A DNA stretch of 64,000 nt from Owenia fusiformis (Eukaryota; Annelida; Polychaeta; Sabellida; Oweniidae), in NCBI GenBank assembly GCA_903813345.2, contig CAIIXF020000010.1, forward strand, positions 7,743,169 to 7,807,168, given 5' to 3'. The position numbers and the translations under genes are program-made. Under the pieces are notes generated by a model. That model searched no databases and was not told the DNA's origin. It saw only the letters and a program-made list of their open reading frames with translations. Each line of letters begins with the position of its first letter. The stretch's first letter is position 1. This document shows, one piece after another, positions 633 to 56,000 of this stretch.

Positions 633-1980
633 ATTATCAGAAATAGGTCAAATAAAGTAAGTAGCTTACTTTGGGTGTATATTTGGCTGTTACATGGAAC
701 TTACTAACAAAACACACAATGTTCATTACAGTGTGACTATGTATTACGAATTGTATAAAACTGTAGATATGAAAGATGTGAAATCAATACAGGAAAAGTA
801 ACATTACAAAGTCTCTTGTTAGTTTTCATATTGGTTAACGCCTGTATGCAATAATCAAAAATTAACCTCTGTTCCTTTCGAAATGCATGTAAAAGGCTGT
901 AGACTTAAAATGGAATGTTTCCCATAAAGAGTGTTGATTGAATTAAATGCTTAGAACTAAAGATAGCAAACATTAAATGGATATTCAAACTGTATTATTA
1001 TTATATAGGATTTTCACAAAACAGGAAAATAATGAAGTATATGAATTTGTGAGTGAAGATCTTGAAGATCTGAAGTCTTCCAAAAGATCTTCTAGTGTAG
1101 CATCATGCATCTAAATAAGTTACATTGAGTTTTCCGATTCTTTTAGCTTGTCAAATTCCTTACATTTACTTCTCCACCATTCTCTATTTCAATGCAAACC
1201 TCAGTTCAGGAAATGTCCAAAACTGGTACCAATTTTTCAAGCAGTGTTTCATCGAGTCTGGACCCCTCCCACCAATCACTTTTTGGAGATAGGATATGTA
1301 ACAGGGTGGGGGATGCAAAGGCTAGAAGCAATACTATTTTCAACATTCTGAATCCTCAATCAGGCAGTTTTCAAATTCTTAACTGAGTACCAGTTGCTTC
1401 AAAGTTATAGCAATGTGAATGTTCATGCCCCTAAATCACAGGTCCACTGTGGCTTCTATCATAACTGCTCTGTCATAGAGGTCTGTTTCATAGCATTATA
1501 AATATATGTGTTGTTGAACGGCACAAACTGTGATGTCACAATCTTTATGGCTTCCTGAGCCGCTATTCCACCCATGAATGACGCAACAGAATGTAACTCT
1601 GCAGCTCCATAGCGACAACTAAAACATAAGAAAACTCAAGTTTTTCAAATACATGCAACAATATACTACTAGAAAATGGTAACTAGAAAACAATTTCTCA
1701 AGCAATAGAGTGCATTTAACTCTAAATCATTCACAACAAGATATTAAATATCCTTTAAAGGGTTGATTTGTTTTGTTTTTCAAATGCTATATCTTTGAAT
1801 ATAATAAAGCCAGACTTACATTTCATGGATCATATCATCTTTGATGTTTGAGGTGAGTCCCCATTCTTGTGTCATCTTACCCACGCATCCCTAATAAAAG
1901 CATAGAATGTACAGCCATTCAGATATTAATGTTATATTTTCTATCCTTTCCAATAGACTAGATGTGAGTGAGTGAGTGGA
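633..1980. repeat. Tandem-duplicated block, copy A (contains NAE1 exons 15-16)
   Basis: This block and 4468-5803 are near-identical direct copies, offset by about 3.83 kb. Both begin at TATCAGAAATAGGTC and end near GAGTGAGTGAGTGGAAAT. Each holds NAE1 exons 15 and 16, the intron between them and about 820 bp of downstream flank. A 14-bp indel in the 15-16 intron (present here, absent in copy B) is the largest difference I saw. The short plus-strand reading frame at 1192-1386 exists only because the flank is duplicated. Confidence 0.92.
1459..1890 (-). CDS. NAE1: NAE1 terminal exons 15-16, distal duplicate copy (A)
   Basis: Exon 15A (1890-1820; acceptor TTATTAG, donor GTAAGT) and exon 16A (1618-1459) encode exactly the same residues as the proximal pair. 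Six base differences in 231 coding bases are all synonymous: GGA/GGC, GAT/GAC, ATC/ATT, ATA/ATT, AAA/AAG and ACC/ACT. Both splice sites and the stop codon are intact, so the copy is usable if the proximal pair is skipped. It would give the same protein with a different 3' UTR. It could instead be a recent tandem duplication not yet decayed, or an assembly duplicate of two haplotypes. Confidence 0.85.
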
Positions 1981-4900: not shown

Positions 4901-7900
4901 GATCTGAAGTCTTCCAAAAGATCTTCTAGTGTAGCATCATGCATCTAAATAAGTTACATTGAGTTTTCCGATTCTTTTAGCTTGTCAAATTCCTTACATT
5001 TACTTCTCCACCATTCTCTATTTCAATGCAAACCTCAGTTCAGGAAATGTCCAAAACTGGTACCAATTTTTCAAGCAGTGTTTCATCGAGTCTGAACCCC
5101 TCCCATCAATCACTTTTTGGAGATAGGATATGTAACAGGGTGGGGGATGCAAAGGCTAGAAGCAATACTATTTTCAACATTCTGAATCCTCAATCAGGCA
5201 GTTTTCAAATTCTTAACTGAGTACCAGTTGCTTCAAAGTTATAGCAATGTGAATGTTCATGCCCCTAAATCACAGGTCCACTGTGGCTTCTATCATAACT
5301 GCTCTGTCATAGAAGTCTGCTTCATAGCATTATAAATATATGTGTTGTTGAACGGCACAAACTGTGATGTCACAATCTTAATGGCTTCCTGAGCCGCTAT
5401 TCCACCCATGAATGACGCAACAGAATGTAACTCTGCAGCTCCATAGCGACAACTAAAACATAAGAAAACTCAAGTTTTTAAAATACATGCAACAATATAC
5501 TACTAGAAAATGGTAACTAGAAAACAATTTCTCAAGCAATAGAGTGCATTTAACTCTAGATCATTCGCAACAAGATATTGGGTTGATTTGTTTTGTTTTT
5601 CAAATGCTATATCTTTGAATATAATAAAGCCAGACTTACATTTCATGAATCATGTCATCTTTGATGTTTGAGGTGAGTCCCCATTCTTGTGTCATCTTAC
5701 CCACGCAGCCCTGAAAAGCATAGAATGTACAGCCATTCAGATATTAATGTTATATACTCTATCCTTTCCAATAGACTAGATGCGAGTGAGTGAGTGGAAA
5801 TGATACAATACAATACAATACAATACTAGTTCAGGGAGATCTGAGTCATTGACATTGTAACGCACTGTGTATATACTATTGATAAAACATTTTATTCATT
5901 ATTTAAGCTAAAGATTGAAAAAGGACAATATGCAGGAGTGCTTATTAAAAATCACACCAGAAATGGTATTTCTAATTTCTTAGGAACCAGGCACTGAGGA
6001 ACTCAATAATATGGTAATGTCTGTTAACAGATATAGAATTTCAAGCAGAGAACAAAGTTTTTTACACTCTGAATTCCTGAAAATATCTGTATGGGAATTA
6101 TTAATTATGTATGGTAACTTAGTATGACTGTCTTTTATCTTTTATAACAATCAATAATCAGATATTGTAAGTACAAGAGTAGTGAGGCATTATGTTTTAA
6201 AGTCAATGAATACACAATAAAGAATCTAAATGGAATACCACACAAAGGTACTGATGAGCAAATACATATTACATATTTACTAGAAAATAGCAACTCCTGG
6301 AGAAGCAAATCCGAACAAACAAACAAAAAATCATTTATAAATCTGAAATATGTCCCAATGTACATTTTACTAGTTCATGTTAAAAAACCCCAATTTGGTT
6401 GTGCTGTTATTGACAAGGATTTGTGCTGATAAGGGTTGAGTTAACCAGTTACCCTTACAGCATACTCTGTGTTCCATTTCTAAAACAATTTAAATGTGTA
6501 AATTATGATTTAGTCATTGTTCATCTAAAAGCAGAAAATGGTTTCTAACAATAAGTTATGATCATACTAAGTATTTTGGGCACCACTGACCTTGAGTTTT
6601 GCTATGTCTGCCTCCACCTGATCGTCATATTGTCCAGGGTAGCGATTGTACTGGGCGTGAAATCTATCGACTGCTCTCAGCAGGATGTACCATGTGATGT
6701 CTTCACTCGATGGGTCATCCAATAGTGAAGCTGAAAGGAATAACATTATCAGAACTGTTTCATCAATAACTGAGTTAACAAAACCTCAACAAGGAACAAA
6801 TATTTCATCGATTTTTTTGACTGGGAAAGCATAGCCCTCATAAGAAAAATAGTTCAATTTAGTGTACTGTATACCGCTGTTATGATTGTGACAGTTGTTA
6901 ACTTGTGATGATCATGCAGAAACGTATTAAATCAATGATTTTATTATTACTTTACAAGCCAATTCATTCAACTTCAGCAGGCCCATAGCCAGGATTTGCC
7001 AAGGGGGGTTCACTTTTTGAAAATAACCGACCCCCCAACTGGCTATGGGCCTGTTCAGGATCTTTTAATACCAACTGGTCTGGTATGTTCATCAAACTTA
7101 CTTAATAAAATATAATTCATTTTTCATTTCTGATAGAAGCTTCCATATGACAGTGGGCAGTACTATTGTGTCTATCATTAAAACTCCTGTTCATTGAAAA
7201 TATACAGCTAGTAGTTGCCAAAAAATATTTGAACATAAAATGCCAAAAGGTCATTAGTGGTCAAATAGGTAATTTTTGAGTTCGTACAATGGGCTGAGAG
7301 AATCATAAAGTGTACCTGTATATATTAATTTGGATTTGGTGATTGTCTTATATTGTTGATATACAAGTATGAAAACTCTGATTTACCCACGATGGCCTGC
7401 AAGAGGTCATGAGGGGACAAAATTCTGTAACACTCATAAGACGTTGTAGCACCTTATCTCAAAATTAACTCCTAACTACATTGTAGTCAGTGCAGGAAGA
7501 GCTAAAAAGTTTTTAATCCAAAGTGGGAACACAAGGTTATGTCTATTACTCACCTATGTGTGAGAGACTATTAGGGTCTGGCGTGTGCTCCTCTTCTATT
7601 GACCTGCCACGTATCAGTCTGAGGAAATAACTATTTTTACAGAATAGTCTAACATCTTCTTCTTCAATGAAGTCATGTGGCTGAAACAAAAAATACACAA
7701 TTTCATTTGAAGGTAAATAGTGGTACATTTGATGTTTGTGCCTCCCTTAATGAAAGTGGGCTAGGGGCATATTATACAAATATTTAATTCTACTGAGATG
7801 AATACCTGTGCATCTTTCACAAGTGATATTCCAAGAAGCCTGAAGTGAAAATAGAATTAAATATTTGTTTTATTATTTACTATTATATTCTTTACTCAAA

Positions 7901-10900
7901 TTAATGGAATAACAAACTATTGATGTCTAAGTCACGTGAATTCCATTGAATATCGCGTGTAATCAGAGAGTGATGAATATGACAGTGATATAATAAATTC
8001 TAATATTATAATAAAATCTGTAGATCAGGTAATTCATTATTAATTAATAGAATAATAAGAATTATATCAATAGAAAAAACTATGAATTCAAAATACCTTT
8101 CACAAGACATTCCTTACCTTTCCATTAGCTTTCAGTAAGTTGACAACCCTTGCGTATACTAAACTCATGTCGCTATTTGCCTTGTCCTTATAAACATTTT
8201 GTAGCTTAATGTATCTCTCAGAGTCAGCAGTCATGTCTGGGATACTACCACGTAATGGCAACATGCCATCTCCTTCATGGTCCACAAAGTCCTTGACTGC
8301 ACGTGCCATGATCCAAAATGCTGAGCTCTGAAAATATAGGTAGTAAGCTTGTATTCGCGAATGCAAATAGCGGTTACCAGCTACCGGGTTGACTGCACTT
8401 AGTCTTATTAGATGCCAAACTCATTTAAATGTATATGACCCAGGTCAAAATAATAGCATACATATTCAGGGTAATCATTAGCTAATGATTATGAAACAAA
8501 TAGGTAACAAATAGTATAGCAATTTGACATGCAAATGAGATAATCATTCAGGGTAATCATTAGCTAATGATTGTGAATTTAATGAAACACTGATTTCTTT
8601 CTTCGTTAATCATTCAGTAATTATTCAGAAACAAATAGTTAATTATTCAGAAACAAATCAATAATTATTCAGAAACAAATCGGTAATTATTCAGAAAGAA
8701 ACCGTTAATTATTCAGAAACAAATCGTTAATTATTTAGTAATTATTCAGGTTATCTGACTCATTTTCTTCTTTATCAAAACCCTGTTGCCTCTCCTGGAG
8801 CTGTCTTGTATTATTCTGACTAATACATGCTCATATAGAGGTGACATATATATCTCCTGTTTTTTGCAAAATATCTCCTGGATTTTTTTTCTCTGAGAGG
8901 TTGGCAGGTATGCATTTTAGATACATGGGCGACGGTGTACAACGATACTCTTTTCTTATATGAATAGTGGGGTGGCAGGATTTCTTAGTGTTTTCAATTA
9001 TGGTGACAGAATAAGCTGCCCCGAGGGACCCATAAACGCCACTTCGAAAAACTTATGGTTGAAATTGAAAAATATCGTTTCTACACATGAGATGTTTTCG
9101 ACTCCCTACTATTAAGTCAACCATTATTTTAGGAGTGAAATATCATTTGTTAGAATTCTACATTTTCTAGGTTTAAGTAGAAAGATATGCATGTTCAAAA
9201 ATTAATCCTCAATTATTGAGGCTGGAATAGCATTGATTACTATTTTGGAAAGCAGTAAAATAGTTAGAATCACAAAATACTATTTATTTGTGACGGTTTT
9301 ATTTTAATATTTAATTAATATGAATGGCTTTAAAGAGAAAATGGATGTAAAAACAATGATGCTATTTGTCTCAAGGTTAAAATATACCATAGAAAAGGGG
9401 AAATGTCAGGAATGAGGTTGTAATGATAGGCTATTACAGACGTTTTCGAGTTTCAAAGTTAATAAAATAATGCTTTCATGAACAGGGGGCAAAATTTTGA
9501 CATTTTCCAAAAATCCAAAATAGAATCACCTTTATTTTTTTAGATAAAGGGTACAGAGATAAAGTGTACTTTATGACGGCCTTTGGCAGTCTGGTGTCTG
9601 ATGACGACTAATGATATGTTGTAACACAGAGTGTGCATTTTAACCTGTCAAGTAGGACACCTCCATGTAGACCACCTCTATAAGTAGAACACCTCAATAA
9701 GTGGAACACCTTCATAAGTAGAACACCTCAATAAATAGAATACCTCTGTAAGTAGAATACCTCCATAAGTGAAACACCTCCATAAGTGAAACACCTCCAT
9801 AAAAGGAACACCTCCATAAGTAGAACACATCAATAAGTAGAAGACCTCCATAAGTGGAACACCCCTATTAGTAGAACACCTTCATAAGTGAAACACCTCC
9901 ATAAGTTGAACACCTCCATAAGTGGAATACCTGATCCATAAGTGAAACACTTCCTTTATAAAGAACCAGGAGGGCGTTGTTCCATTTGTTTGACTGTCTG
10001 TGATTCTCGAGCATTTAAAATGTAGGCTACTGTCCATTTAAAATTGGCCGATATGGTTAGGAAAATGGCGCCAAATGCTCATTCTTTTATACCCCGGCAT
10101 AACTTTCTCTTAAAATGGCTGCTTGTCGGAAATGAACACTCTATAACTGTATATGCGACAATGAATGTTGCGGAAATTATGAAAAGCCTTTACTCAACTG
10201 AGACAAATCAAATATACCTTGTTTGGGACAACTTTAGTTATATATTTTGATCGTATCTATAAATAAATAAATTATGTCTGTGTTTTATTGGAGTTACTAG
10301 TAATTGCTCTTTATCCAGCAATGTAATGGATGTTTATTTGGTTCACATGGTTGACATGTAGAATCACCCGTCCGTCTGGCCGTAAGTATATATAAATATG
10401 TAACGTACGTACAATTTCCAGTATGAATTCTAATTGTAGTTGCAATAAATAGTAAACATTTTCCAACATTATGAATCCTTTTGTGAAGTATATTATTGAG
10501 CAGCTGCGTTCTCTGCTTCAGTATGGTTTTGAATGTTCGAGTGCGGGCCGATCTAATTTCCCTTCCTCCGCAACAGTTTTCGAAGATCCCGGCGAAACGT
10601 AGGACCAGATAGACAGTAAAGCAAAAAATTAATCGAATTATTTGTGTACATGAGTAAATTACATATAACAAAGTGAAGCTTCCTCTTAGCAATTGTTAAT
10701 TCATCACTACCCGGGTTCCACGTTTCGTAAAAATTTAGATAGAGAACAATAGGCGATGTGCAGATAATGAACACGAAATTCACAGTGAGGAGCATTGCCG
10801 TCATGAATGTCATCTTTGATTCGTTCGTTGAGCTCAGTTTCCGAACCTTGATAATAATTAGAACGTTGCTTGTGAACATGATGAAGAACGGGATAAAAGA

Positions 10901-13900
10901 GGCGATACACATGTCAAGCCATGGCCACGTGTACCTGGCGAAATGTTTATATTTTTCTTCAGCAATAATGCATGCAACAAAGATGTCACCACGATCATTT
11001 ATTTTGATGTATCCGTATGTCCAGAAGAAGTGAAGGTTAATAAAAAACAAAACGAAAGAGATGGCGCAAACTGTGATGAAAGTTGTAAAACTAGTACAGT
11101 ATACCCGAGCTTTGTAGGGAATATAAACTGCAACTAGCCTCTCAAACGTTACCGCAACTAAGATCCACGCAGATAAATCCAAGGAAAAGTAAACTAGGAA
11201 TATGTGAAATTTACATCCACCAAGTGTGATACTCCGTATGTCTATGTCGGAAATGTGACGTATCCAATGTCGCAAAAGACCAGTGTAAAGTACAGTTGAA
11301 TCGACTACAGCCAGGACGCTGAGATAAATACTAGACGTGCTTTTCCGCATGTTCTTCCTGGTGAGTATGATAAAAGATAAAGTGTTTCCTATTGTACCGA
11401 CAATAATGATCAGCGGTGCACAGTATGTCCATAATTCCTTGGCTATTGTTGCCTTGGTGACAATATCTGCCATCGTTGAGCTCATCCTGTTGGTAACTGA
11501 GCTTTCTTGAGTGACTAAACTCGTATCGTTGGTAGTAGCCATTTTGAAGAAAAATAGTGAACAAATATCTAAAAAACAAAATAAATTGATAGATTAAAGC
11601 TTTAGAACCTCTTACCATGTAACATCATAACAAAACTGAAATAATTCCGCTAAGTGCTTTTCCTGGAATCGCGATGACAAGATCTATCTAAAAACTTCCA
11701 AAATGGCCGCCAAAAAACAAGATAACCAAGGTGGAGTGACTTTTTCACATCAGCTCTACAACTTCTTACCATTGAGCATGTGAAAATTTGAAATAATTCT
11801 GTCAAGTGGTGCTCCAGGAATTGTGATGACGATAGCACCTGCCATGCTTCCCGTTTCCAGCTCTTGCCCAAAAGCAATAACTGACTCAAATAAAGATTTA
11901 ATCTGGTTATTAAAGCACCAACCATGACAGACTATCGAGGTGTTTAGAATTTTAAATAGCAGAAGTACATCTGGCGCATGTGCATAGACACAAGACACGT
12001 TTTAAATGAATTCGATCATTTGACAATGGGATAAGAAGTCACGTAGTCACTGTTAGTTGACAAATGGGTTGTTCGTAAATTACAACTTCAGACTAACGGG
12101 TTAATTTATGCAAATTGATCGGCTAATCTGGTAGCTGTTAGATGTATTCACGAATACAAGGTTAGGAACAGATTAACCCAATCTGCCAACTGGCATTTGA
12201 GTTATCACCTGGACAGATGAATAAACAGACAGATGCTTGATGGTTGATGAACAGAGTCAGGCAAAATGAACCTGAGCGACATCTATGTACTGTTCTGAGT
12301 ATGAAAGGCTCTATTATGGAGAGATAATAGAGCCTTACACACCTAGAACAGTATATAGATGTCGCTAAGTGTTCCTATGATGCAGGAAACTGAAATAAAT
12401 CAGAGTAGTAACATGTAGCTCCATGTACTTAGTAGTTAACAAGACCCCATTTTAACAATCAAGAGAAAGAAAGGCCAAGATATAAGCAATGTTATAAACG
12501 TAGTTGGATTATAAAATTACCACAATTGTTTTTCTCTAAGCTCATGGAAATTAGTTACCAAAATGTACATCTCTCAGTTACATTAAACAGGAAGTGGAAA
12601 TATTGACAAAGAAAGGTATTGAAGGGCATTTTACCAGATATTTAAGAATACTTATCTTCCTAAGTTCATTGATTGATACAAATGTAGACAATTACACAAA
12701 ACTGAAGGTACACGGACAGACTGTATGGCATTCACTAATCATATTTTGCATTTGAATAACAAATTATTTTGAATACAAATTACATTCAGCCTACAGTGGG
12801 GGACATAAAGAATTACAAAAGCTATGGAAATTACATGCTGTCGCATATGTAATAAATTCTTACCTCAGTGTATTCAGTGCTCTATTTTCTCCGTCCTAGT
12901 AAGTCCAGATATAGTGGAATTTGTGTCCATAATGACAAATAAGAACTTAAAAATTTGAAGTGCAATTCACATGTTAATGCCGACTCTTCAAATGTTGAGG
13001 TGATTTTGGAGCCCGATTTCGCCGCAATGTGCGTTGGCTCCCAGAATACAACATGACACGTGTCATCTTTCAAAATGCCGTTCCGCCATTTTGAAATCTG
13101 TCACGAATAAATAAGGTTACTTGATGTTGCATTCTGGGAGTTAATCCTCCTTGGATCACAAACATGGCGATTCATGAAAACATCAGTCCGATTTGGTAGG
13201 GATTTATCCAGCATTTGCAGGTATGAAGCTTTGGATTCATTTATTGTGCTACTTTAAGTGAATGGGAATTATTTTTCTACCGCTTGGGAGAGTTTGAGAC
13301 ACGAAACTTAGAATTTAGCTCAATGTGACAACTTTTGAGGGTTGAGATTTATTTTTGTCCCCCACTTTAGATCAGAGTCTATGTAATATGTCTCTGCATA
13401 GATTCGAGGCCTACTAAAAATATGTCAATCTAGGCCTAATACAGTGTGCAGAAGTATATCTTGGATTCAGTCAGGGTAAACCCCTAATAATAATGTTGCA
13501 CCCTGAGGGGTTCGCCGCATAAGATGCTGGTGAACTAAGATCTTGATAATCTCAGACTAAGTTACTTCTTTCAAAGGCTGACTGATTTGATCAGATAAGT
13601 CAGCCTTTGAAAAAGCCTTTGAAAGAGGGAAAATCTTATTACCCTGCACGCAGAGTCTAGTTTTAAACTACCCTCTGCATAGTATAGACTATATTACGGT
13701 TTAGCATCCCCACCCTCACCACCTATGCCCATTTCAAACCTACCACGCTGATCATTTCTTGACCAATCAGCAAGCTGGAAGGAACACATGGTAAATGTGT
13801 GCGCATTAAATTTGCGATAATGTCAAAGGAAATTTGTTTATAGAAAGTTGTCTGTATTTTGAGTGAGTTCAGACATTTATATAGTAAACTGAAAGATTGA

Positions 13901-16900
13901 AGATGAAGCCCTCTTTTAAGAAGGGAAGTCAAACGAATGGAAAGGGTAAAGATATTTATCCTATGCCAAGTAGAGTTTTAGGGAGATAAGTTGGTAAGAT
14001 ATATATATTTCTTTTATTGACATTTTGTATCAAAACATGACACATTAGTCTATGTACAAACTAGGCTGTCTTGACACAAGACAATACTACACTATTAACT
14101 AAATGCTAGACTACATTTAACTAAACTAAACTTTATACATGTAACATATAATCATTAGTATGAGGCTACAGGCTTTCTATTAAACTTGATGCATAAAAGA
14201 TAAAAAGAAGATATTAGCAGTGTAGCACAGTAATTGTAGTCTACTCTAAATTTTGGAAAGAATGGTAAACATATTTGCCAATATGCCTTTGAACAGTAAT
14301 ATTTTGCGAAGACAATAGCATTCTAAAATTTGTTTCATTGATTAGAAAATCGGGTCCAAATATTTCTTTCATTTTTTCTAGAAGGACACTCCTTTGTGCA
14401 TCATGTTTTTTACAATTAATAAAAAAATGTTTTTCATCTTCTACAGATTTACAAGTTAGGCAAAGTCTATCATTTATTGGAATAGGTTTAGGTTTAGAAT
14501 AGCGGCCTGTTTCAATTCGAAGTTTGTGTGAGCTTAGTCTAAACCTGGCTATTGATTGTCTATATTTTCTATTATCAAGTTTTGTATAAGTATCCAAGGA
14601 AAAGTCATTCTTAAAGGTGTTATATGTGCGAAGTATAGGGAAGTTGTGATTAATATCAGTTTTCCATTTATCAACAAAGTTACTCCTCAAGGTTTTTTCA
14701 ACATTGAATGGTACCATTTCTTTATTTTCTAAATTATCTTGATCCTCCCAGTGTTTTGTCATATTAGTTTTACATAAAATATCATAAACTTTTGTAGCCC
14801 AAGTTTGAAAACCTAATTCGTGCATTTCCTTTTCATAGGAATATGCTTTATGGAGTATATTTGTTGGGGGGAGTTGGAGGATTCTTATCCAGTATTTTAT
14901 TAATGCAGTCTCAAATTTTACAGAAATTGGAAAACGGCCTAAGTCTCCATAAATTGCTGGACTGGCAGTTTGTCTTTTTACTCCGAGAATTGATTTAATA
15001 AATCTCAAGTGCACCATTTCAAGATCATTTATATGTTTTTCTGTTTGCCATATCTCACACCCATATGTAAGAATGGGTGTTACTAGGGTGTCAAAAAGAT
15101 GTAAAGCTACATTGACTGGTACATCACCAAATTTCTTAAATTGGCTTTTTATTTTAAAAATTGCCTTTCTTGATTTACCAATTAGATGTTTAATATTTAT
15201 ATCCCGTATTCTGATTCTGAGGTTTCCATATCCTGAACCTCCATATCTCCCGCTCCAGGTCATATCTTCCCGCTTCGAAAAAAATTTGAAAAAATAAGAA
15301 AAAATTGAAAAAAAAAGAAAAATTGTGAAAAGAAATTTGAAAAAAAGAAAAAATTGAAAAAAATAGAAAAAAAATTGAAAAAATAAAAAAAATTGAAAAG
15401 AAATTGAAAGAAAATTAGAAAACTCTACTTGGTATAGGATAAAGCAGTTATGTACGATCGGTTTGGATATTGGGTTCATCCCTCGTGAGATATGCACATC
15501 TACCTTCGGTCCCTACGGTCCCTCAGGTAGATATGCATATCTCCCTCTGGATAAACCCCATATCCAAAACCTCCCAGTACATAACCCTTAAATATTCTCT
15601 CCAGAAAAAACATTGGTAAACTGGTTTTTCAGTCTGTTGGTTTCAGAATATGTTTGTTTACAGAACAAGAGTGTTAAAATAATCAGGATGTGAATATTGA
15701 AGTTTCTATCCATTTCAAATTCAACACTCTTAGTCAGAGGCTTCAGTAGAAAGAGTTCATTAAAAGATGGCAATAATTGAATGACATAAGTCATATCTAT
15801 TTTTCAGGTCTAATTAGTGGTGTCAACTCTGGGAAATACCCATCACCATGGCAGCAAAGCAACAAGGGGACAACTGCTGCAGAGTCATGGGAGAAGCTCT
15901 GACCAATCAGCACAGAGAATGCATGGACAGGTGTTGGAGTATCACCTTGACAACCAAACCTCCAGTGGACAATCTCAAAAACAACACAACCATATCTCCA
16001 GAACAACACATAGATGCATTAAGCACATACTTGCCTCGCACAGCAAAACAGGGGTACTATGCAGGTGTTAGATTCTTACTTTCAAAAGGTGCTAATGTCA
16101 ATTCACAAGATAGTAATGGTGGGACTGCACTTATGAAAGCAGCCCAGTCTGGGTATATCAACATTTTAAAATTGCTGCTAGAACATCGTGCTAGTGTGAA
16201 TATGGTGGATATGGATGGATACACTGCACTTATATATGCCACAAGTTTCAGCCACATTGGTTGTATACAGGCGTTGGTTGCTGCTGGGGCTTCCATTGAC
16301 ATTATGAACAATTATGGTTGGAGTGCTCTGATTCTTGCCGCTATTAATGGTGACACAGATTGTATTGAACTATTCCTTGCCAATGGTGCTAAGCCTGATC
16401 TGGAAGACTACAGTAAGTTAACAGCACTCATGCACTCTGCTACGGGAGGTAGAGCAAAGAGTATAAAGTTATTACTTGAAGCTGGGGCACAGCCAAATCT
16501 TAAAGACAGCTATGGTACAACTGCACTGATATGTGCAGCAGTCAATGGGCATTTAGACTGCCTTGTTTTACTTCTAGAAGCAGGCGCCTTGCCAAATTTG
16601 CAGAACTATGCTAAAAAAACAGCACTTATGGAATCATCGAAAAATCGTGAAATAGAGTGCACTGAGTTGTTACTTAAATGGGGGTCATTGCCCGATTTGC
16701 AAGACAAACCAGATCAACGAACAGCACTGATGTACGCTGTATTGCGAGGCCACCCAGTTATGGCAGAGGCTTTACTACAGGCAGGGGCTGACCCTGGGAT
16801 TACAGATCGCCAGGGCCTAACTGCATTCATGCATGCAGCAGAGAAGCGACATACAGACTGTGTTCTATTGCTATTGGCTCATGGCTCAGATGCAAACATT

Positions 16901-19900
16901 AGTGACAATAGTGAAAAACATTGTAAGGCAATTCATCATGCATTGGATCGGGCATTTAGTATATACGACCTTGAACTCATACAGATTCTAATCATCGCAG
17001 GGTGCTACATTAACACTGCTCAATTTTCAATTATTGTTCATAAACATTTTTATGATACACCTGCATTAACAAAAGACAGATTAATTCAATGGCTACAGAA
17101 CTACCAGAGTGTGCCACGGTCTTTACAACATATGTGCAGAATAAAAATAAGACAAACAGTACATCCAAAGTATTTCAAAGGGAACATAGAGGATCTTCCA
17201 TTGCCTGAGGTTATGAAAGACTACATCCAATTTGCAGAATTGGATGACTTTGAAACCTCAATCAATATACAGCCAAGCTAATACATGTAATATGAAATAC
17301 AGGCCCGTAGCCAGGGGGGGGGGGGGGTTGCAGGCCCCTCTGGCCACTCAAGTGATTTTAGCCATATTTGGGCCAAAATTGTCAAATGTGAACCCCCCTG
17401 GACATTTTTGAAAACTGAACCCCCCTTGGCAAATCCTGGCTATGGGCCTGTACTGGGTTGATCCAAATTAAAACATCTCTGGACAATACACAACTTTTGT
17501 TTCAAATAATTGATGTAATGAACCACTTTGTAATCAAAAACCAAAAAGTGCAAGTTATAAATTATTGCTCTATGTCAACTATGAAAATCTTAATCTTAAT
17601 TTCCTTGAGTCGTGCCCTGTAAGTCTATTGATAGTTTTCACAGACCCAGTTTACTTAGCTTGTTGGCTACCGGATTAACCTACACTTTTATGACCAACTC
17701 ATTAAAATATGATTACATACTTAAATGACTTGCGCTTGCCCATAAAATAGTGGGTTAATCCGGTAGCTGACAGGCATTAGTTGCATTCGCAAATACAAGC
17801 TTCGATTGATCCCTCTATTTATTTACGTGAGCTTAGAGGGACTTAGCTTGGCATGAGGCTGAGGCAATCGAGGCAATCTTCACAAAGTTTTCTGAAAATA
17901 TTTATTTACATATTTTTTTCAATTAAAACTGAAAATTTTATTCTTTTTAACTCTTGGCCCTGCTTTTTACTTCATGACTTTCACTTTGTCCCTGGCTCAT
18001 TACTAAATTGTGCATGTTTTTCTTGGAATTCTTGTAGATTTAATCACATTTAGAAGCTTGATAGATAATAGTGATTTTTACCCATTTGCCCTCATTCTGC
18101 TTCTGTCAAGTTTTGACTTGAAATTAAGTGAAAGAAAAATATATAAAATACATGTACTACGTTTGTTCTTGAAAGACAATGAATCCAAAACTAATATAGT
18201 TTCCAGCACATGAGAAACATGACACAACTTATTCAAAAATTGTCCCTTTTTAACATGCAGCCTCTCTGTACATGTATGTTATGATCTTCCAAAAAGTGAA
18301 CTGTTCACCTACCTCTGTATGCAGATTACAGCAAGCATTGTCATTGAAGATCTCACATACGCTGTCTGGTACCTAAAACATACCAAACATTATTAAACTA
18401 TATTAAACAAAGGAGGAGTTAAAATGTATATCCATATTTTGATGAACCTTTAGGAGCAGAATAACATGTTGAATAAGCGATGGTGCCCAATTATCAACAG
18501 CTGTGGAAGAAGGAAGTTAATTTTGTTAGGGGGAGGGCTTGGTAAATAATGATATTTGATTTCATTTTGTTGATAATTAGACGGCATCCCTAATGCCGAA
18601 GTCACAATTGCTCCCGGCATATTGCACCTTCAACATCAATTTACCCAATTTTTTTTATTTTATGGGTAATTGTTCACCTTTTACATTTTTTAGAAAATTT
18701 ATTGTTAAGCATTTACTTTTGATACTAAAGTCTCTTGACGATGGATCTAATTCAACTCAAGATTTAGCCCATTCAATCAAAACTTGATGACAAAAAAACT
18801 TATCTTTGTTGGAACAAGTACCGAGTTGACATATGTTACAGCTTATCTTTGTTGGAACAAGTACTGAGTTGACATGAGTTATAGCTTACCTTTCTTGGAA
18901 CAAGTACTGAGTTGACATGAGTTATAGCTTACCTTTCTTGGTACAAGTACTGAGTTGACATGAGTTATAGCTTACCTTTGTTGGAACAAGTACTGAGTTG
19001 ACATGAGTTATAGCTTACCTTTGTTGGAACAAGTACTGAGGTAGAAAGCAACTTACTTTTTCACCCATTGGAATACATGTAAAATTGACAAAGTTCAAAT
19101 CATAATTTCTCAAATCCCAGCCCATCGAATCCTCGCATCCATTCAGATCATGTAGTCCTATTCAAAAACTTCCCGTTCGGTTATATGGTGAAAAAAATAT
19201 CCCACGAACGAAAAAAGATTTTGCTACATTTGTAAGCGAGCATTGATTTCTGGGTCTGTAAAAAGCACGTAGGACCTGATTACCCCATTGATTTACTGAG
19301 ACCGCCAAAAATATAATTCAATTTTTTGGTTCAAAATTATAATCTGTCAGCGGTCCCTGGCACACCTACTAGCTATTACCAAACATTAATTGTCAATACA
19401 TGTACACATTTACGTGCCATACATCAACAAAGTAGCAAACTAGTGTTTTAACTACTAATTTTCCTATACCATGAACAAAACAAATCGCACGTGGGTTGTA
19501 TTGACCCTGAGTTGACATGAGTTATAGCTTACCTTTGTTGGAACAAGTACTGAGTTGACATGAGTTATAGCTTACCTTTCTTGGAACAAGTACTGAGTTG
19601 ACATGAGTTACAGCTTACCTTTCTTGGAACAAGTAATGAGTTAACATGAGTTATAGCTTACCTTTGTTGGAACAAGTACTGAGTTAACATGAGTTATAGC
19701 TTACCTTTGTTGGAACAAGTACTGAGTTGACATGAGTTATAGCTTACCTTTGTTGGAACAAGTACTGAGTTGACATGCGTTATAGCTTACCTTTGTTGGA
19801 ACAAGTACTGAGTTGACATGCATTATAGCTTACCTTTGTTGGAACAAGTACTGAGTTGACATGCGTTATAGCTTACCTTTGTTGGAACAAGTACTGAGTT

Positions 19901-22900
19901 GACATGAGTTATAGCTTACCTTTGTTGGAACAAGTACTGAGTTGACATGTGTTACAGCTTACCTTTATTGGAACAAGTACTGAGTTAACATGAGTTATAG
20001 CTTACCTTTGTTGGAACAAGCACTGAGTTGACATGTGTTATAGATTACCTTTGTTGGAACAAGTACTGAGTTGACATGTGTTACAGCTTACCTTTATTGG
20101 AACAAGTACTGAGTTGACATGAGTTATAGCTTACCTTTGTTGGAACAAGTACTGAGTTGACATGAGTTATAGCTTACCTTTGTTGGAACAAGTACTGAGT
20201 TGACATGAGTTATAGCTTACCTTTGTTGGAACAAGTACTGAGTTAACATGAGTTATAGCTTACCTTTGTTGGAACAAGTACTGAGTTGACATGAGTTATA
20301 GCTTACCTTTCTTGGAACAAGTACTGAGTTGACATGAGTTATAGCTTACCTTTGTTGGAACAAGTACTTAGTTGACATGAGTTATAGCTTACCTTTCTTG
20401 GAACAAGTACTGAGTTGACATGAGTTATAGCTTACCTTTGTTGGAACAAGTACTTAGTTGACATGAGTTATAGCTTACCTTTCTTGGAACAAGTACTAAG
20501 TTGACATGAGTTATAGCTTACCTTTCTTGGAACAAGTACTGAGTTGACATGAGTTATAGCTTACCTTTGTTGGAACAAGTACTGAGTTGACATGAGTTAT
20601 AGCTTACCTTTGTTGGAACAAGTACTGAGCTGACATGTGTTATAGCTTACCTTTGTTGGAACAAGTACTGAGCTGACATGTGTTATAGCTTACCTTTGTT
20701 GGAACAAGTACTGAGTTGACATGAGTTATAGGAATAAGTACTGAGTTGACATGTGTTATAGCTTACCTTTGATGGAACAAGTACTGAATTGATATGTGTT
20801 ATAGCTTACCTTTGTTGGAACAAGTACTGAGCTGACATGTGTTATAGCTTACCTTTGTTGGAACAAGTACTGAGTTGACATGAGTTATATCTTACCTTTG
20901 TTGGAACAAGTACTGAGTTGACATGAATTATATCTTACCTTTGTTGGAACAAGTACTGAGTTGACATGAGTTATAGCTTACCTTTGTTGGAACAAGTACT
21001 GAGTTGACATGAGTTATAGCTTACCTTTGTTGGAACAAGTACTGAGTTGACATGAGTTATAGCTTACCTTTCTTGGAACAAGTACTGAGTTGACATGTGT
21101 TATAGCTTACCTTTGTTCGAACAAGTATTGAGTTGACATGAGTTATAGCTTACCTTTGTTGGAACAAGTACTGAGTTGACATGAGTTATAGCTAACCTTT
21201 GTTGGAACAAGTACTGAGTTGACATGAGTTATAGCTTACCTTTGTTGGAACAAGTACTGAGTTGACATGAGTTATAGCTAACCTTTGTTGGAACAAGTAC
21301 TGAGTTGACATGTGTTATAGCTTACCTTTGTTGGAACAAGTACTGAGTTGACATGTGTTATAGCTTCATCAAAGTTTTCTTCATCTTCTGGAATATCTTC
21401 ATCTTTACTTCTTATTCCTACAATAACATATAGTTTCAAAATGTCAGAATATAAAGAAAACACCAACTCCACGGAGTAGCAAATCCCACCAAACAAAACA
21501 TGTTTTGATAAATAGCAGCCATAAAAAATGAACCGAATCCATCAACAGGTATTTGAGTTATTGTCCACACAAAAAGCAAACAGACGACATTCGTTCTATG
21601 GACAAATTATTGTTCTATAACAATAATTTAACAGCAACACAAGAGATAAAGAACATGCCTATAATGTTGTGGACCTTTAAAACCATTATTTAACTTAAAA
21701 CATTGGATACATATTTAGAGATAATTCATGAAATTCATTCTCCTAAACTCACCTGTTTTTATAAGTTCTTTGAATTCCTTTTTTTCTTTGTAATTTTTGG
21801 GTGGATCACCGTTATGCTGGAAATATGAATGCACCAATTGAAAAGCTGGTTATTTATTAAAAAATCAATATTTTTATATAACTATTTCAAAGACTAATTT
21901 TTATGATTTCCTTTCCTTGAACTCGTGACCTGTGTTGTCTAGATACAGTACTAAACCTAACCTAAAACTGAAAAGAAGAATATCAACCTACCCTCTCTTT
22001 CCATATTTGTAGGTATTTGTATATGATGACTAGCCAAGGTGTATGCATGTGGTCCTTCTTGCTCATTTCATCAAGATTTAGGCTATCGCAGAAGTCAACT
22101 AGGGCAGGGAATGGATGGTCTAGCCTCAAATCTTCATGTGAGCTGTCCGGATGGGACTCTGTCACTAAACCAAAAAAAAAGTCTCATGTCATCCTTAGCT
22201 GACTTCAATAAGTGCATATCAATCATAGAGCATAGTATAATGAAGGTGGAGACAATGGCTTTCAGATGATTTGAACTTGACCATTCTTTGGCTATTCTTT
22301 TGGAGAAGTGATATTTTATATTGGATAACAGTTATCAATGGAAATATCCGTCAAATTTTGGTCATGTGGTAATTATCAAGTTGAAAATCTGACATCTATA
22401 AATGTTGAACTTTTTGTTTGACATGTCTGCGCAGAAAGAATAAATACCTAATGAACGAAAAAACATAGCATTAGACATAGGAGTGAAATTATCTGGGCAC
22501 TAGAGGAAATGCTAAAGCGTATCCAAAAAGCAAAAAGCATTATTTTAGGCATTCAAGGATTTTATATTAGTCATACCTTGATCACTGTTATAAGTAGACA
22601 ACAAATATACTGAAACATAAAACTCATTTTCCTAAACATGGATGGGAAAGAAATCCATAAAACAATGGGCTTTCAAGAGACCCTTTTAAATGACACAGAT
22701 CATCAAGTAACCACATACATGTACTAAATTACTCAGGCCGGAGTAACTTCTCTGCATAAGAATGTTACCATTTCCAATAGCTGCAAATTGCATACCTGTA
22801 TGTTCTTTGACAGCCAACCTCATATATCCAATCAGTCCATAGCTTCTTGTTATCAATAATGGTACTCCATTTTTCCATAGTAGGTCCGCCAATGTTAGGA

Positions 22901-25900
22901 GACCCCTTAAATGCAAAGAACACATTTTATATACCCTTGTCAGTAGTTTGGTTTTTCTTCTTCAAAAGAGAGCTTCATTTTCACTCATTGAGTTAGAGAT
23001 AATTAATCCTTTGATCTAGCCTAACCCAATCTACAAAGACATAGCTAACATACTCCTCTGCCACCATTAGTTCAAATATGCCATCATTACACTGGACTAA
23101 TCAAGAGTATATGATCAAAATCCAGCTACCCAATCAAATAGCAGTTGGTGAATGTAATACTGTACTTTGAAAAGTACATGGCATTTCTTTCATATTGAAA
23201 CTCCCATTAGAGGCAGTGGCAGCTTTTTTGAGGTAATTTGGATCGCATAAGCATTAGAACATCCTCTTATTCAAAGTTTTACACTATAATTATAAAATGT
23301 TGATGTTGCCTTTTGGCAAAATCTACATCCATGACAACACACAATGCAAAAGAGTTATTAGATATTTTTTTGGAGGAGAGGTTCTTTGCTCGTAAGACAT
23401 TAGGCTGTAAAATTTGGACCAAACCACATAACAGATATTTGCAATTATCCAAAATTATATTTCATCTGAAAATGGTTGTTATTTTACCCTTTGCATTCGT
23501 TTGACTTCACTTCTTAAAAGAGAGCTTCGTCTTCACTCTTTCAAACTAAAATAAACCTCTGAACTCACCGCGCCAATCAGTGTTCGTCGGCCAAATTTGA
23601 CCGACGTTCTATATATGGTAATACCTTCTGATGTCATCGTTGAGCCCGGAATTGACCAATGACATGCGCATATTTAATAAGAACGCATTTGGCGTATGTT
23701 TCTTCAAGCTCGCTGATTGGTGGAAGAAAGGTCAGAGCGTAGGTCGAAAGTGATTTATTATCCAAACTGTCACCGGTACCCGTCGTGGGGGCGGGGCTAT
23801 TAAACTGTAATATGGTCTCTACTAGGCAGAGTGTAGTTTAACTAGACTCTGCACGCAGGGTATTGTTATTTTGAATTCAGTTGTCATCTTGGAAATTCCT
23901 TTTTGAGCAGACTCCTACAAACTCTTAACCATATCTGAGAGCTGGCATTTGAGCTTTTAAAATTCTTTTCAGATATATCAGTCCCTATGACAACTTATTT
24001 TTCAGTGATATGAGTCACTATGACAACTTACTTTTCAGATATGTCAGTCACTATGACAATGCTGAATGTGTTGAAAAATGTGGGGTTGTTCTCAACTAGA
24101 ACTTCTGGTTTCTGGAATAAGAAATTAATATCTGTTACTTCTGAAATAATACACTAAAAGTACATAATATACATATTAGAAGCTCACTCTGTTTCTGAAT
24201 TTTTTGAGTATTTGTTTCTTTATAATGAAACTTCAAGATGGTAATCCTTTTCACAATTTATAAGATCATTTCATCAGTGGAACATTGTGAGGATATCACG
24301 ATTTCTAGCCACTTGTGGACAATCTGGTCATAATGACCACTAGTGATGTCATAGAGCAAGCATACCTCATCCACAAAATCGCCACTGACATCTTCATTCA
24401 GTTCAAGCAACAACTCTGTGGCAACTTGGGCTCGACTCTAAAATACACAAGAATTACATATCAGCTGTTCTGTATCATCTCAAATATAACAACATGTAAT
24501 GCATCCATGTTATGATATATATTTATATTTATATATATTTATTTAAAAACTTTGGTCTTAAAAGTGATTATTGTACACCATAGTGTCTCATATGCCGACA
24601 CCGGCAGGGCCAGTGATTTTCTGTAGTTTTTAATAATATGTAATTTTATATATTGGCGTGACACTTAAATAAATAAATACATACATATATACCTGGTACA
24701 ATTTCATTTTTCATTCAAATAAGGAAATTACATGTGGATTGTTCCTTGTGAATTAAAATGTGGAGACAATAATAAAAAAACAGGTTTGAATAAAAATATT
24801 CTGTATTCCATATTCCATGGGGTTTCTCCCAAACTTAATGTGGTATTATTCTCAAAAATTTAGCACATGGCCATTTTATTCCTTAGTTTAGCATTTTCAA
24901 ATTAATTAAAAAGTGGAATTCTTACCTTTCCAAGACTGTCTTTGTCAAGGAAGAAACTAAAATAAAAAATAAGTAAATTTATTTACTTGTATAACTGATT
25001 TAATTAGTAAATGATTGTCCTATTTGTTTTATAATGGTTGGAAGGGGGTGTCCTAAATAACAACACAAACACAAATTTTAGCAAGTTACTTTAAAGTTTT
25101 CCTTTTTCTTATTTAGATGTATTTTGTATTCCTTACCAGTTGCCATAAGGCTTCTTATAGAATCTCAAGGAGCTCTATTTTAATATGGGATCATCCAAAC
25201 ATGGATCCATGTATGCTAGGGGTGCGATGCTCTCTTTAACTCTTAGAAGACATGTATTTATATTTCTTACTTGTTTCCAATATCTTGTCCCGTAACTTTG
25301 TTTCCATCAACAATGGTGAATGACCCCACTCCTGTCATAAAATGAGGAAATTACAGATAAATCAATGACTTACTCTCTGCATGCACTATAATCACTACAC
25401 CTGTAAAATGTACATTGTCAAAATAGAAGGAGGAAGATTGTATGATTTTGCAAGAAAATTCAACAAGCCTTCAAGATTTTCTTTTTTGTTAAATTAATAA
25501 CCATATGGTAAAATATGTTCAGATGCCTCCAATGGTTCACATTCTGGATTCTTTACTGCCAATTAAAATCACAAATCTAGAATATAGTTACAGAGATGAA
25601 AATTACCTGGCAGGATAAGATTCTTCAGGATTTCTGTCCCAGTTGCTGTAGCATTGACGAGGCATACTGTGGCTGTTTCAAGAGACTGTTGACCATGATC
25701 ACCCCACAGCCTACAATAGAAATTTATTTATCAGTCGTATACTACATTGTACTGGCCTCGCTAAGAGCATGGGCTTTCAACAGAAAGCCCATGGTAAGAG
25801 CGAAAATCAACAATGAAGCTCAGTTGTATTTTGGCAAAAGGTCTATGGTAAATTTTTTAATGTTGAGTGTCCCCAGTACACAGCAACAAGCCTGTACTAC

Positions 25901-53000: not shown

Positions 53001-56000
53001 ACTGTTGTGAGCAACTAGGTGGTGACATTTTGTCATGGTAATGCCTTGTATGCTCTTGCCCAAGAAATTCTTAAGATGGCCACTGATCTCAAATTTTATG
53101 AAAAAATATAATCTTTGATAACTTGAATATTGATTGATGGCATTGATTTTATATACAATTCAAAAGACATAATCCTAGGGGTAGATTTAGCCAAAATGAA
53201 ACAATATCAGTGGTAGATTTAGCCAAAATGAAACAATATCAGTGGTAGATTTAGCCAAAATGAAACAATATCAGTGGTAGATTTAGCCAAAATGAAACAA
53301 TATCAGTGGTAGATTTAGCCAAAATGAAACAATACTTGTCCCAGTTGTTTCTTTCATGAATGTTTCAAAATGGCAAGTGATGTAGTAAAATATGTTTTGT
53401 TTGATGGAATTTGCTACTCTGGGGAGTTTCTATTTTTGTTGTTGGTTTTTCAGCCACATCTTGTAATTATGTGTCTATGCTATAGTTACCTGTGTTCATG
53501 TATTAAGAAATGTAATAACTTATTATAAGTCAATCTTGCCTTACTCTGTGCTGACCGCAGGTGGGACTATAGGCACACTGATTGAGAAAGTAGGTAGATC
53601 AGAGAATAATTAAACCTATACAGTTAACATATACATCCAATTCACAGTGAATGGTTCTCAGTGTTAATTGAGCTTATTTGGAAATACATAGAATGGTTTG
53701 ACATTGAATGGTTCTAAGTATTGGTAGAGTTTATTGAGAAATACATTGAATTGATTGGATTGTTACTTCTTTTAGGAGTCAGATTTTGCATCATGGTGGC
53801 TACAGTTGGTCCCTTGCCACTTGTAGATAATGGGATTTTTGAATCTTATTTTGACCATAGTATTTTTGCACCAAAATAATTACATGAGGAGGTTAAATCA
53901 AGAAATGTATTGAATGGGAGATAATTTAAGATGGTATATTGCTTGACAAAAAAAAATACAAAAATGATATTTTGTTCATTTCCTTAAAATTATTTTACTG
54001 TTTGTTTCAGGAGGCGAGACGGGCAGCTGAGAAGTTAAGGAAGTTAATGACCCCAGATGACATTGATCGCGAGAAATTCAACAATATATTATGGCAGGGA
54101 AGTGAGGCCCTAATAGAGAAGAGATATCGTAATGCCATTCAATACTATCAGGAATGTCTGGAAAAAATTGAGAAAAGATCAGTCAAGGTAGGATTGCACT
54201 AGACGTGTTATTATCTCAACAAACGAAGGAATAATAGAGAATTCCTTTGTCTGTCCGTCCATCCATCCGTATGTCCTTACATCCGTACGTCTGTCCGGAC
54301 GATAATTCAAATGCCGCTGGTCCGATTTTGTTCATATATTTAAAATACATGTGCCATATGTCAGTAGATGTTCTGCTCGAAAGTCAGTTTTCAAAATGGC
54401 AGCAGCTCATTTAAAAATGGTGCTTATTTAAGTGCCGATTTTACAGTAATATAGGTACAAATGTAAAACTGGAAAATGGCGGGCATTACACACTATTTTA
54501 CGATTTTTGCTATAATTTGAAAAGTAGTGGTACAATTCTTTTTGTTATGTCCCCACCACATAGTGTGGGGCCATATTGTCGGCCTAGGCGCGTCCGTCCG
54601 TCTGTCCGTCTGTCTGTCTGTCCGTCCGTCTGTCTGTCCGTACGTCCGGCAGTTTTCTCCAAAACCGCTACTGATATCACCTTCAAATTTTCAGGGATAA
54701 CTTATGAGTGCATACAGATGTGGATGAAAAAAAATTAACTCGATACCTACTTCCTGTCGGCCATTTTGAAGTCAAATGCTAAAATCCTTGTCTGCAAACT
54801 TTAAGAAAAACGGCTTCACAGTTGCTTTTAAAACTTTAATATCTTGTTCAGCTCACTTCATTCTAGATCTGATTAGGTTTTGGACCTGTTAGCTCAGTCA
54901 TGTCAGCCATTTTGAATGTTTTAAGAAAAGTTAGCGCACGATAATACTTCTACGCATTTTCAGGTGAACTGTTTGGTAGATCAATTTCAAATTTTCAGGG
55001 ATGATTCTCAGTATGAAAATCTAGATCTGATTAGATTTTGGGCATTCTGGGTAAATGTCAAGGCAGCCATTTTGGATTTTCCGTCCTAAAATCTTGTCTG
55101 TAAAGTCTTGTCTACGCATTTCCAGGTGAACCGTTTGGTAGATTAATTTGAAATTTTCAGGGATGATTCTCAGTATGAAAATCTAGATCTGATTAGTTTT
55201 TTGGCATTCTGGATAAATGTCAAGGCAGCCATTTTGGATTTTCCGTCTTAAAATCTTGCCCGTAAAGTCTTGTCTACGCGTTTTTAGGTGAACCGTTTGG
55301 TAGATCAATTTCAAATTTTCAGGGATGATTCTTAGTATGGAAATCTAGATCTGATTAGTTTTTGGGCATTCTGGATAAATGTCAAGGCAGCCATTTTGGA
55401 TTTTCTGTCTTCAAATCTTGTCTGTAAAGTCTTGTTTACATGTTTTCTGGTTAACTGTGTGACGGATCAATTTCAAATTTTCAGGGGTGGTTCTTAGTAT
55501 AATAATCTAGAACTGACTCATTTTTTGGCATTCTGGGTAAATTTTAAGGTAGCCATTTTGGATTTTCCGTCCTCAAATTGTGTCGGTAAAGTCTTGTCTA
55601 CTCATTTTTAGGATAACCATTTGACGGGATCACCCATTGGTGGGGACATTTTGTACACATTTGTGTTCTTGTATTTGATATGCGATGACTTGATGTGAAG
55701 CATGGCACAGTCTTTTGACACTTAAGTTCTAATGTGGCCATTTATGTTTGATTATTTACTACATAACACGAAATGTATAGAGTGATTTTGTTCATATATG
55801 ATGACTTATAAGCATGTCACATTGTTTAGGACACGTTGGCTGTTACATGGCCATTTTTAATTTGGCTGTCATTTTTACATGTTCTACTGCAATTCAAAAT
55901 GTAATAGAGAGTAATTTTTTCATATTTCACATGTGACTTTATATAAGCATCGTACATGTTTATTGACAATTTTGCTAGAAAGTGGCCATTTTGAAAAATG

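Follow-up and report, generated by a model that had tools for sequence, protein, structure and literature searches.

A tandem array of 5′ splice donors in intron 10 of Owenia fusiformis NAE1, probably a minisatellite born at an exon edge

The exon 10 donor of NAE1 and the array behind it

We analyzed a window of 64,000 nucleotides of Owenia fusiformis DNA, the whole stretch under study, and located NAE1 in it with a human NAE1 probe. The gene has an intact reading frame and GT-AG introns throughout. By itself, exon 10 matches human NAE1 in the PDB (3gzn_A, E = 0.0021); its junction with exon 11 is in frame, and the joined protein still matches human NAE1. The exon 11 acceptor has the top score among the 188 AGs scored in intron 10, under a scoring model that includes that acceptor. 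The features of the locus are as follows.

5293-27391, minus strand: NAE1 (NEDD8-activating enzyme E1 regulatory subunit), 16 coding exons
23965-24059, minus strand: second exon-edge repeat of NAE1, 33 bp × 2.9, beginning in the end of exon 6 and spanning the exon 6 donor
21326-21417, minus strand: exon 10, 92 nt, its last 37 nt within repeat unit 1
21320-21362, minus strand: unit 1, the last 37 nt of exon 10 plus the authentic donor GTAAGC (GT at 21325-21324)
18798-21362, minus strand: 43-bp donor-bearing tandem array
20731-20760, minus strand: unit 15, truncated to about 30 bp, without a donor
19039-19508, strand not given: interspersed repeat of about 470 bp inside unit 44
18798-18883, minus strand: the two units most distant from exon 10, donor GT changed to AT
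18313-18372, minus strand: exon 11 of the 16-exon gene model

The authentic exon 10 donor is the first donor of the array. A preliminary description of this DNA had counted about 49 duplicated 5′ splice sites directly after it, and had read the 43-bp unit as the end of exon 10 followed by GTAAGC in sense orientation. Both statements are borne out by the composition of unit 1 and by a count of 49 unit positions (47 full, one truncated and one split). The same description spoke of 2.6 kb of donors, which is right for the span but not for the array proper: the interspersed repeat interrupts it, and about 2.1 kb is left once this insert is discounted. Successive units are 43 bp apart, the truncated unit and the insert being the exceptions. 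The units lie head to tail with 95-96% matches in 43-bp rows, a unit size and identity that place the array among minisatellites (VNTRs; roughly 10-100 bp). A search of 141 array bases against the genome gave matches confined to the NAE1 locus. The insert has 39 other genomic copies at 95-97% identity among the matches listed, and on our reading it appears to be bordered by a 3-bp TCA duplication; unit 44, which it splits, still has its donor. In the repeat at exon 6, GT is absent from the donor position of both later copies.

Variation among the units and the outcome of each donor

The donor word AAGGTAAGC is exact in 40 of the 47 full units. GT itself is present in 45 of them, and at 46 of 48 donor positions when the split unit 44 is counted and the truncated unit 15 excluded. 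Both losses fall in the two full units farthest from the exon, a placing also expected under weak selection on near donors. Among the 46 full intronic units we counted 58 changed cells, eight of them within the nine donor columns; the rate of change is 8/414 (1.9%) in donor columns and 50/1564 (3.2%) elsewhere (p = 0.19), a comparison that is a weak test of neutrality within a single homogenised array. Moreover, 28 of the 42 adjacent column pairs are equally invariant, the GT pair among them. Adjacent units are more similar than shuffled ones, differing by 1.84 positions at lag 1 compared with 2.27, and none of 2000 shuffles was as low.

The choice of donor has definite consequences for the reading frame. 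Use of donor 1 keeps the NAE1 frame intact. Use of donor 2 leads to a frameshift and a stop after 299 codons, and use of any of donors 3 to 9, the range computed, places a stop within the added bases after 294 codons. The unit length of 43 is 1 mod 3, and the earlier prediction that later donors bring a frameshift or a stop thus agrees with our computation for donors 2 to 9. Because a conserved gene keeps its frame beside about 45 rival GT donors, we infer from the sequence that donor 1 wins over them. Donor 1 is probably preferred through exon definition and because it is recognised first as transcription proceeds.

Donor-bearing arrays at other exon ends

We searched the genome for triplets of the word AAGGTAAG spaced 20-50 bp apart, with the reversed word as control. 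There were 240 triple-word matches and 101 for the reversed word; as single words the donor octamer is the rarer of the two genome-wide (23421 vs 28713). Counted by hand as arrays, in the region listed for both (from C1 to position 20.7 Mb of C6), the excess is 17 over 10 and not significant (p = 0.08). A second word, CAGGTAAG, had 339 matches and its control 63; among the matches listed, which run to C4, most belong to one array, so we draw no rate from this word. On the acceptor side, a search with TTTTTCAG is dominated by dispersed repeats among the matches listed, which run to C2; of six other acceptor-side arrays that were fetched, one (L047) ends at an exon, which we take to be that of a TMEM144-like gene, and we draw no rate from this side either.

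Altogether 32 donor arrays were fetched: 17 found with AAGGTAAG, nine with CAGGTAAG (among the matches listed, to C4) and six new ones with AAGGTAAGT. Eighteen of the 32 have a first donor that marks the end of an exon-like open stretch, picked by eye, and unit 2 copies the end of this stretch up to the donor. The homology between exon and unit 2 extends over 23-45 nt in 12 of the 18 and over 6-16 nt in the other six, so that six of the 19 exon-born cases, NAE1 included, rest on 6 to 16 nt. The exon has database support from Pfam or the PDB in 14 of the 18, five of them weak. The strong matches, with their E-values, are listed here.

L004: tRNA-binding domain, 2.8e-12
L005: SLC6 family, 2e-14
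L006: UDP-glucose/GDP-mannose dehydrogenase family, 6.3e-11
L050: NCS-1, 2.6e-9
L016: ABL1, 2.1e-9
L041: KIAA0895-like, 7.3e-8
L052: CRIPT, 9.3e-8 (locus assigned by reading)
L038: peptidase M24, 1.7e-7
L017: Ig, 4.2e-6

The five weak matches (L012, L014, L037, L043 and L054) have E-values from 0.0069 to 2.4e-5 and are below Pfam's cut-off. Searches of Pfam for L001, L010 and L039, and of Pfam and the PDB for L051, returned no match; L001 presumably resembles ABHD13, and L051 presumably DIP2. In five arrays (L004, L005, L017, L050 and L016) the match reaches the codon at the first donor. The remaining 14 of the 32 arrays are undecided or not exon-born; next to one of these, L036, a tRNA-synthetase-like exon stops some tens of bases ahead of the array.

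The controls define how these counts may be read. By hand count there are at least 22 reversed-octamer arrays, and 17 of the 22 were fetched. Two of them, L028 and L034, extend beyond the fetched piece, and L034 yielded no stretch long enough to scan; across 113 six-frame stretches from 16 control loci, four families were matched. Exons are therefore common near control arrays as well, and nearness alone proves nothing. Homology between exon and unit is the stronger test, and it covered the donor arrays alone. An upstream Pfam match was found for 7 of 23 array octamers and for 6 of 40 random octamers, the latter all taken within 2 Mb of the start of C1; the difference is not significant (p = 0.20; p = 0.08 without the two transposon genes among the six), and neither is that in open-stretch length between array and random octamers (p = 0.18). 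In these alignment scans the matching member is unnamed, and loci were counted by reading which stretch had matched. The Pfam scans of the donor set partly used a by-eye frame where an exon had been recognised, which favours that set, and the rule-based comparison applied one frame rule to both sets on a smaller sample. Two automatic frame-choice rules, which missed several exons, were dropped. Overall, donor-octamer arrays are not depleted in this genome; these comparisons all lean towards a small surplus beside donors and real exons, and none reaches significance.

The spacing of the donors was compared with the codon length across the 18 arrays and NAE1. Three divides the first donor spacing in 6 of 19 cases, the share expected by chance. 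The main period is a multiple of three in 2 of 17 (p = 0.07) without L039 and L010, and in 3 of 19 with both. Neither count departs clearly from one third.

Origin of the array and its meaning

We consider it probable that the array is an exon-edge minisatellite, born by slippage and hidden by first-donor splicing. Every unit consists of the exon 10 end and a donor, and the minisatellite would have arisen across the exon-intron junction. To the left of the donor, unit 2 repeats the exon without a mismatch for 41 nt, and it departs from the exon only at the GT that precedes AAGC. Because letters are shared at the joint, the initial duplication probably fused two AAGC words lying 43 bp from each other, one exonic and one in the donor GTAAGC. 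Slippage or unequal exchange would then have enlarged the array into the intron, a local process suggested by the fact that neighbouring units are the most alike. The spliceosome is predicted to take the exon-proximal donor and to remove the whole array with the intron, leaving the protein unaltered; we favour first-donor use because the frame is intact and later donors bring a frameshift or a stop. The later donors would be mostly idle, and their occasional use would expose the mRNA to decay.

Donor arrays that stand at other exon ends in the genome probably arose in the same way. Heavy use of later donors should favour units that keep the frame, and the first spacings are as chance would give them; harm from extra donors should make donor-word arrays scarce, and they are not scarce. 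The simplest account is therefore a passive, recurring product of mutation that splicing hides. A tolerated slippage product was among the roles first proposed for the array, and it is the one favoured by the donor columns, by the 18 similar arrays and by the lack of depletion of donor arrays.

A bolder extension of the passive account is rather unlikely in our judgment. It would have 5′ splice sites act as recurrent birthplaces of minisatellites in this lineage, with scores of unrelated genes carrying long, rapidly changing arrays of equivalent donors; strict use of the first donor would conceal these arrays, and a low level of splicing from later donors would let copy number tune gene output in a heritable way.

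The two regulatory roles that had been suggested, a brake through nonsense-mediated decay and a U1 sink, find no positive support. In the first, which we regard as unlikely, part of the transcripts would use later donors, meet a premature stop and decay, so that unit number would control how much NAE1 is made. Pairing of the consensus donor with U1 comes to −9.5 kcal/mol, inside the range of the 15 NAE1 donors (−4.5 to −12.2 kcal/mol), and the units with the exact word pair as strongly as the authentic site; the computed outcomes of donors 2 to 9 also agree with a brake. However, the donor columns are not significantly better kept than the remaining columns, and genes unrelated to NAE1 have a like build whose spacings fall in every one of the three frames, with no clear sign of selection. 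In the second role, U1 bound to the array would shield the intron from premature polyadenylation. The GT kept at nearly all donor positions would suit such telescripting, but intron 10 is only 2953 nt long and contains four AATAAA words, two of them created by variant array units, and the array itself contributes most of the length to be protected. Intron 11, of about 10 kb, is the needier of shielding, and no tandem array with a GTAAG unit was found in it. A U1 sink is very unlikely.

An assembly artefact, with the copy number inflated or the array misplaced, is likewise very unlikely. The copy number of this 2-kb array, with units about 96% alike, comes from one assembly and may be inexact. 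Against an artefact, the units differ from one another, one is cut short and an interspersed repeat divides another, and 18 comparable arrays stand at other exon-like ends. Finally, we give almost no credence to units acting as microexons or recursive splice points (CTCAG, 17 nt, GTAAGC; or AAAG/GTAAGC): intact units each have an AG upstream of the donor, as the preliminary description had pointed out, and variant units 13, 17 and 18 hold an AG scoring 5.1, inside the real range, but CTCAG scores −2.0 and AAAG/GT −4.1, both under all 15 real NAE1 acceptors (1.2 to 14.9) in a small model built on those 15 sites.

The closest working parallel to the NAE1 array would be the minisatellite of the human interferon-induced gene IFI6, whose repeat sits at an exon end with an in-frame unit of 12 bp. 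In both genes the repeat starts in the exon and its units carry the donor. Unlike the IFI6 unit, the 43-bp NAE1 unit is out of frame, and its later donors lead to a frameshift or stops. The IFI6 minisatellite (6-16, G1P3; Turri, Cuin and Porter 1995, cited in PMC4526556) supplies several splice donors, and two downstream repeat units serve as donors to give three mRNA species (PMC4526556); on this evidence, the initial statement that no system like the NAE1 array had been described does not hold. In a known mode of intron gain by tandem duplication, exon sequence with AG/GY is duplicated and one copy turns intronic (2010; PMC2891723). There the new intron lies inside an exon, whereas in NAE1 an existing donor is copied in dozens of units and an existing intron lengthened; judged by the in-frame junction with exon 11 and the match of the joined protein to human NAE1, the array only lengthens intron 10 and would create no new intron position. 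Minisatellites also lie in introns of working genes, including fish growth hormone genes (cited in PMC3045353) and intron 1 of earthworm metallothionein (PMC12783039); unlike for NAE1, an exon origin or a copied donor is unstated in the available parts of these sources. A literature search, with subscription papers mostly outside its coverage, did not find exon-born donor arrays as a genome-wide class. Within this partial coverage, the recurrence of an exon-edge donor build across many genes of one genome seems to be new.

Donor choice by the spliceosome is usually studied in constructs with few sites. Hodson et al. in 2012 reportedly found that surplus U1 snRNPs at competing 5′ splice sites are purged on entry to complex A. 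Those were reportedly laboratory constructs with few sites, whereas NAE1 offers 46 natural donor positions with GT. The array is thus a natural test of choice among equals, with about 45 near-identical GT donors behind the real one in a conserved gene. As the build recurs at other exon ends, ordinary RNA reads from this one animal could show which donor is chosen, be it the first, the nearest or one at random, and the same reads could give the error frequency and its dependence on copy number. The exon-edge minisatellite also illustrates how an intron can lengthen from exon-derived sequence while the protein is left unharmed.

Repeat arrays at exon ends

Elsewhere in the same genome, locus L037 carries, after an exon-like end, an array that spans ~4.3 kb in roughly 90 units and exceeds in length the donor-bearing array of NAE1 intron 10. 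A second locus, L047, is the acceptor-side counterpart of the donor-side arrays: its repeat copies run up to an exon resembling TMEM144. Within NAE1, a short repeat starts from the end of exon 6, donor included, and the GT is absent from its later copies.

C1:53780640-53784944, L037, 48-bp CAGGTAAG units
C2:24400849, L047, copies of TTTTTCAGGCAATT
Window 23965-24059, NAE1 exon 6 end, 33-bp repeat, 2.9 copies

Exon-like stretches (a ZZ finger and an asparaginase, assigned to locus by reading) are also found near L022 and L030, two control arrays of the reversed donor octamer, but there they and the pattern occupy opposite strands.

Other repeats

Tandem repeats are abundant in the window, with 26 rows in the tandem-repeat listing of the 64-kb stretch, among them the two arrays below.

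53180-53334, perfect 32-bp array, 4.8 copies
54949-55623, 162-bp array, 4.2 copies

The interspersed element found inside the NAE1 array has 15 further occurrences at C9:7202394-7221567, spaced by ~1336 bp.

NAE1 intron 11 and 3′ flank

Intron 11 (window 8328-18312, ~10 kb) contains the following open frames, labelled by what they resemble.

10553-11542, 329 aa, GPCR-like
14241-15497, reverse-transcriptase-like
15848-17281, strand opposite NAE1, 477 aa, ankyrin-repeat-like

Downstream of the gene, the last two NAE1 exons have a second copy at window 1462-1890, where the tblastn matches are nearly the same as those at 5296-5716; the sequence points to a partial tandem duplication of NAE1.
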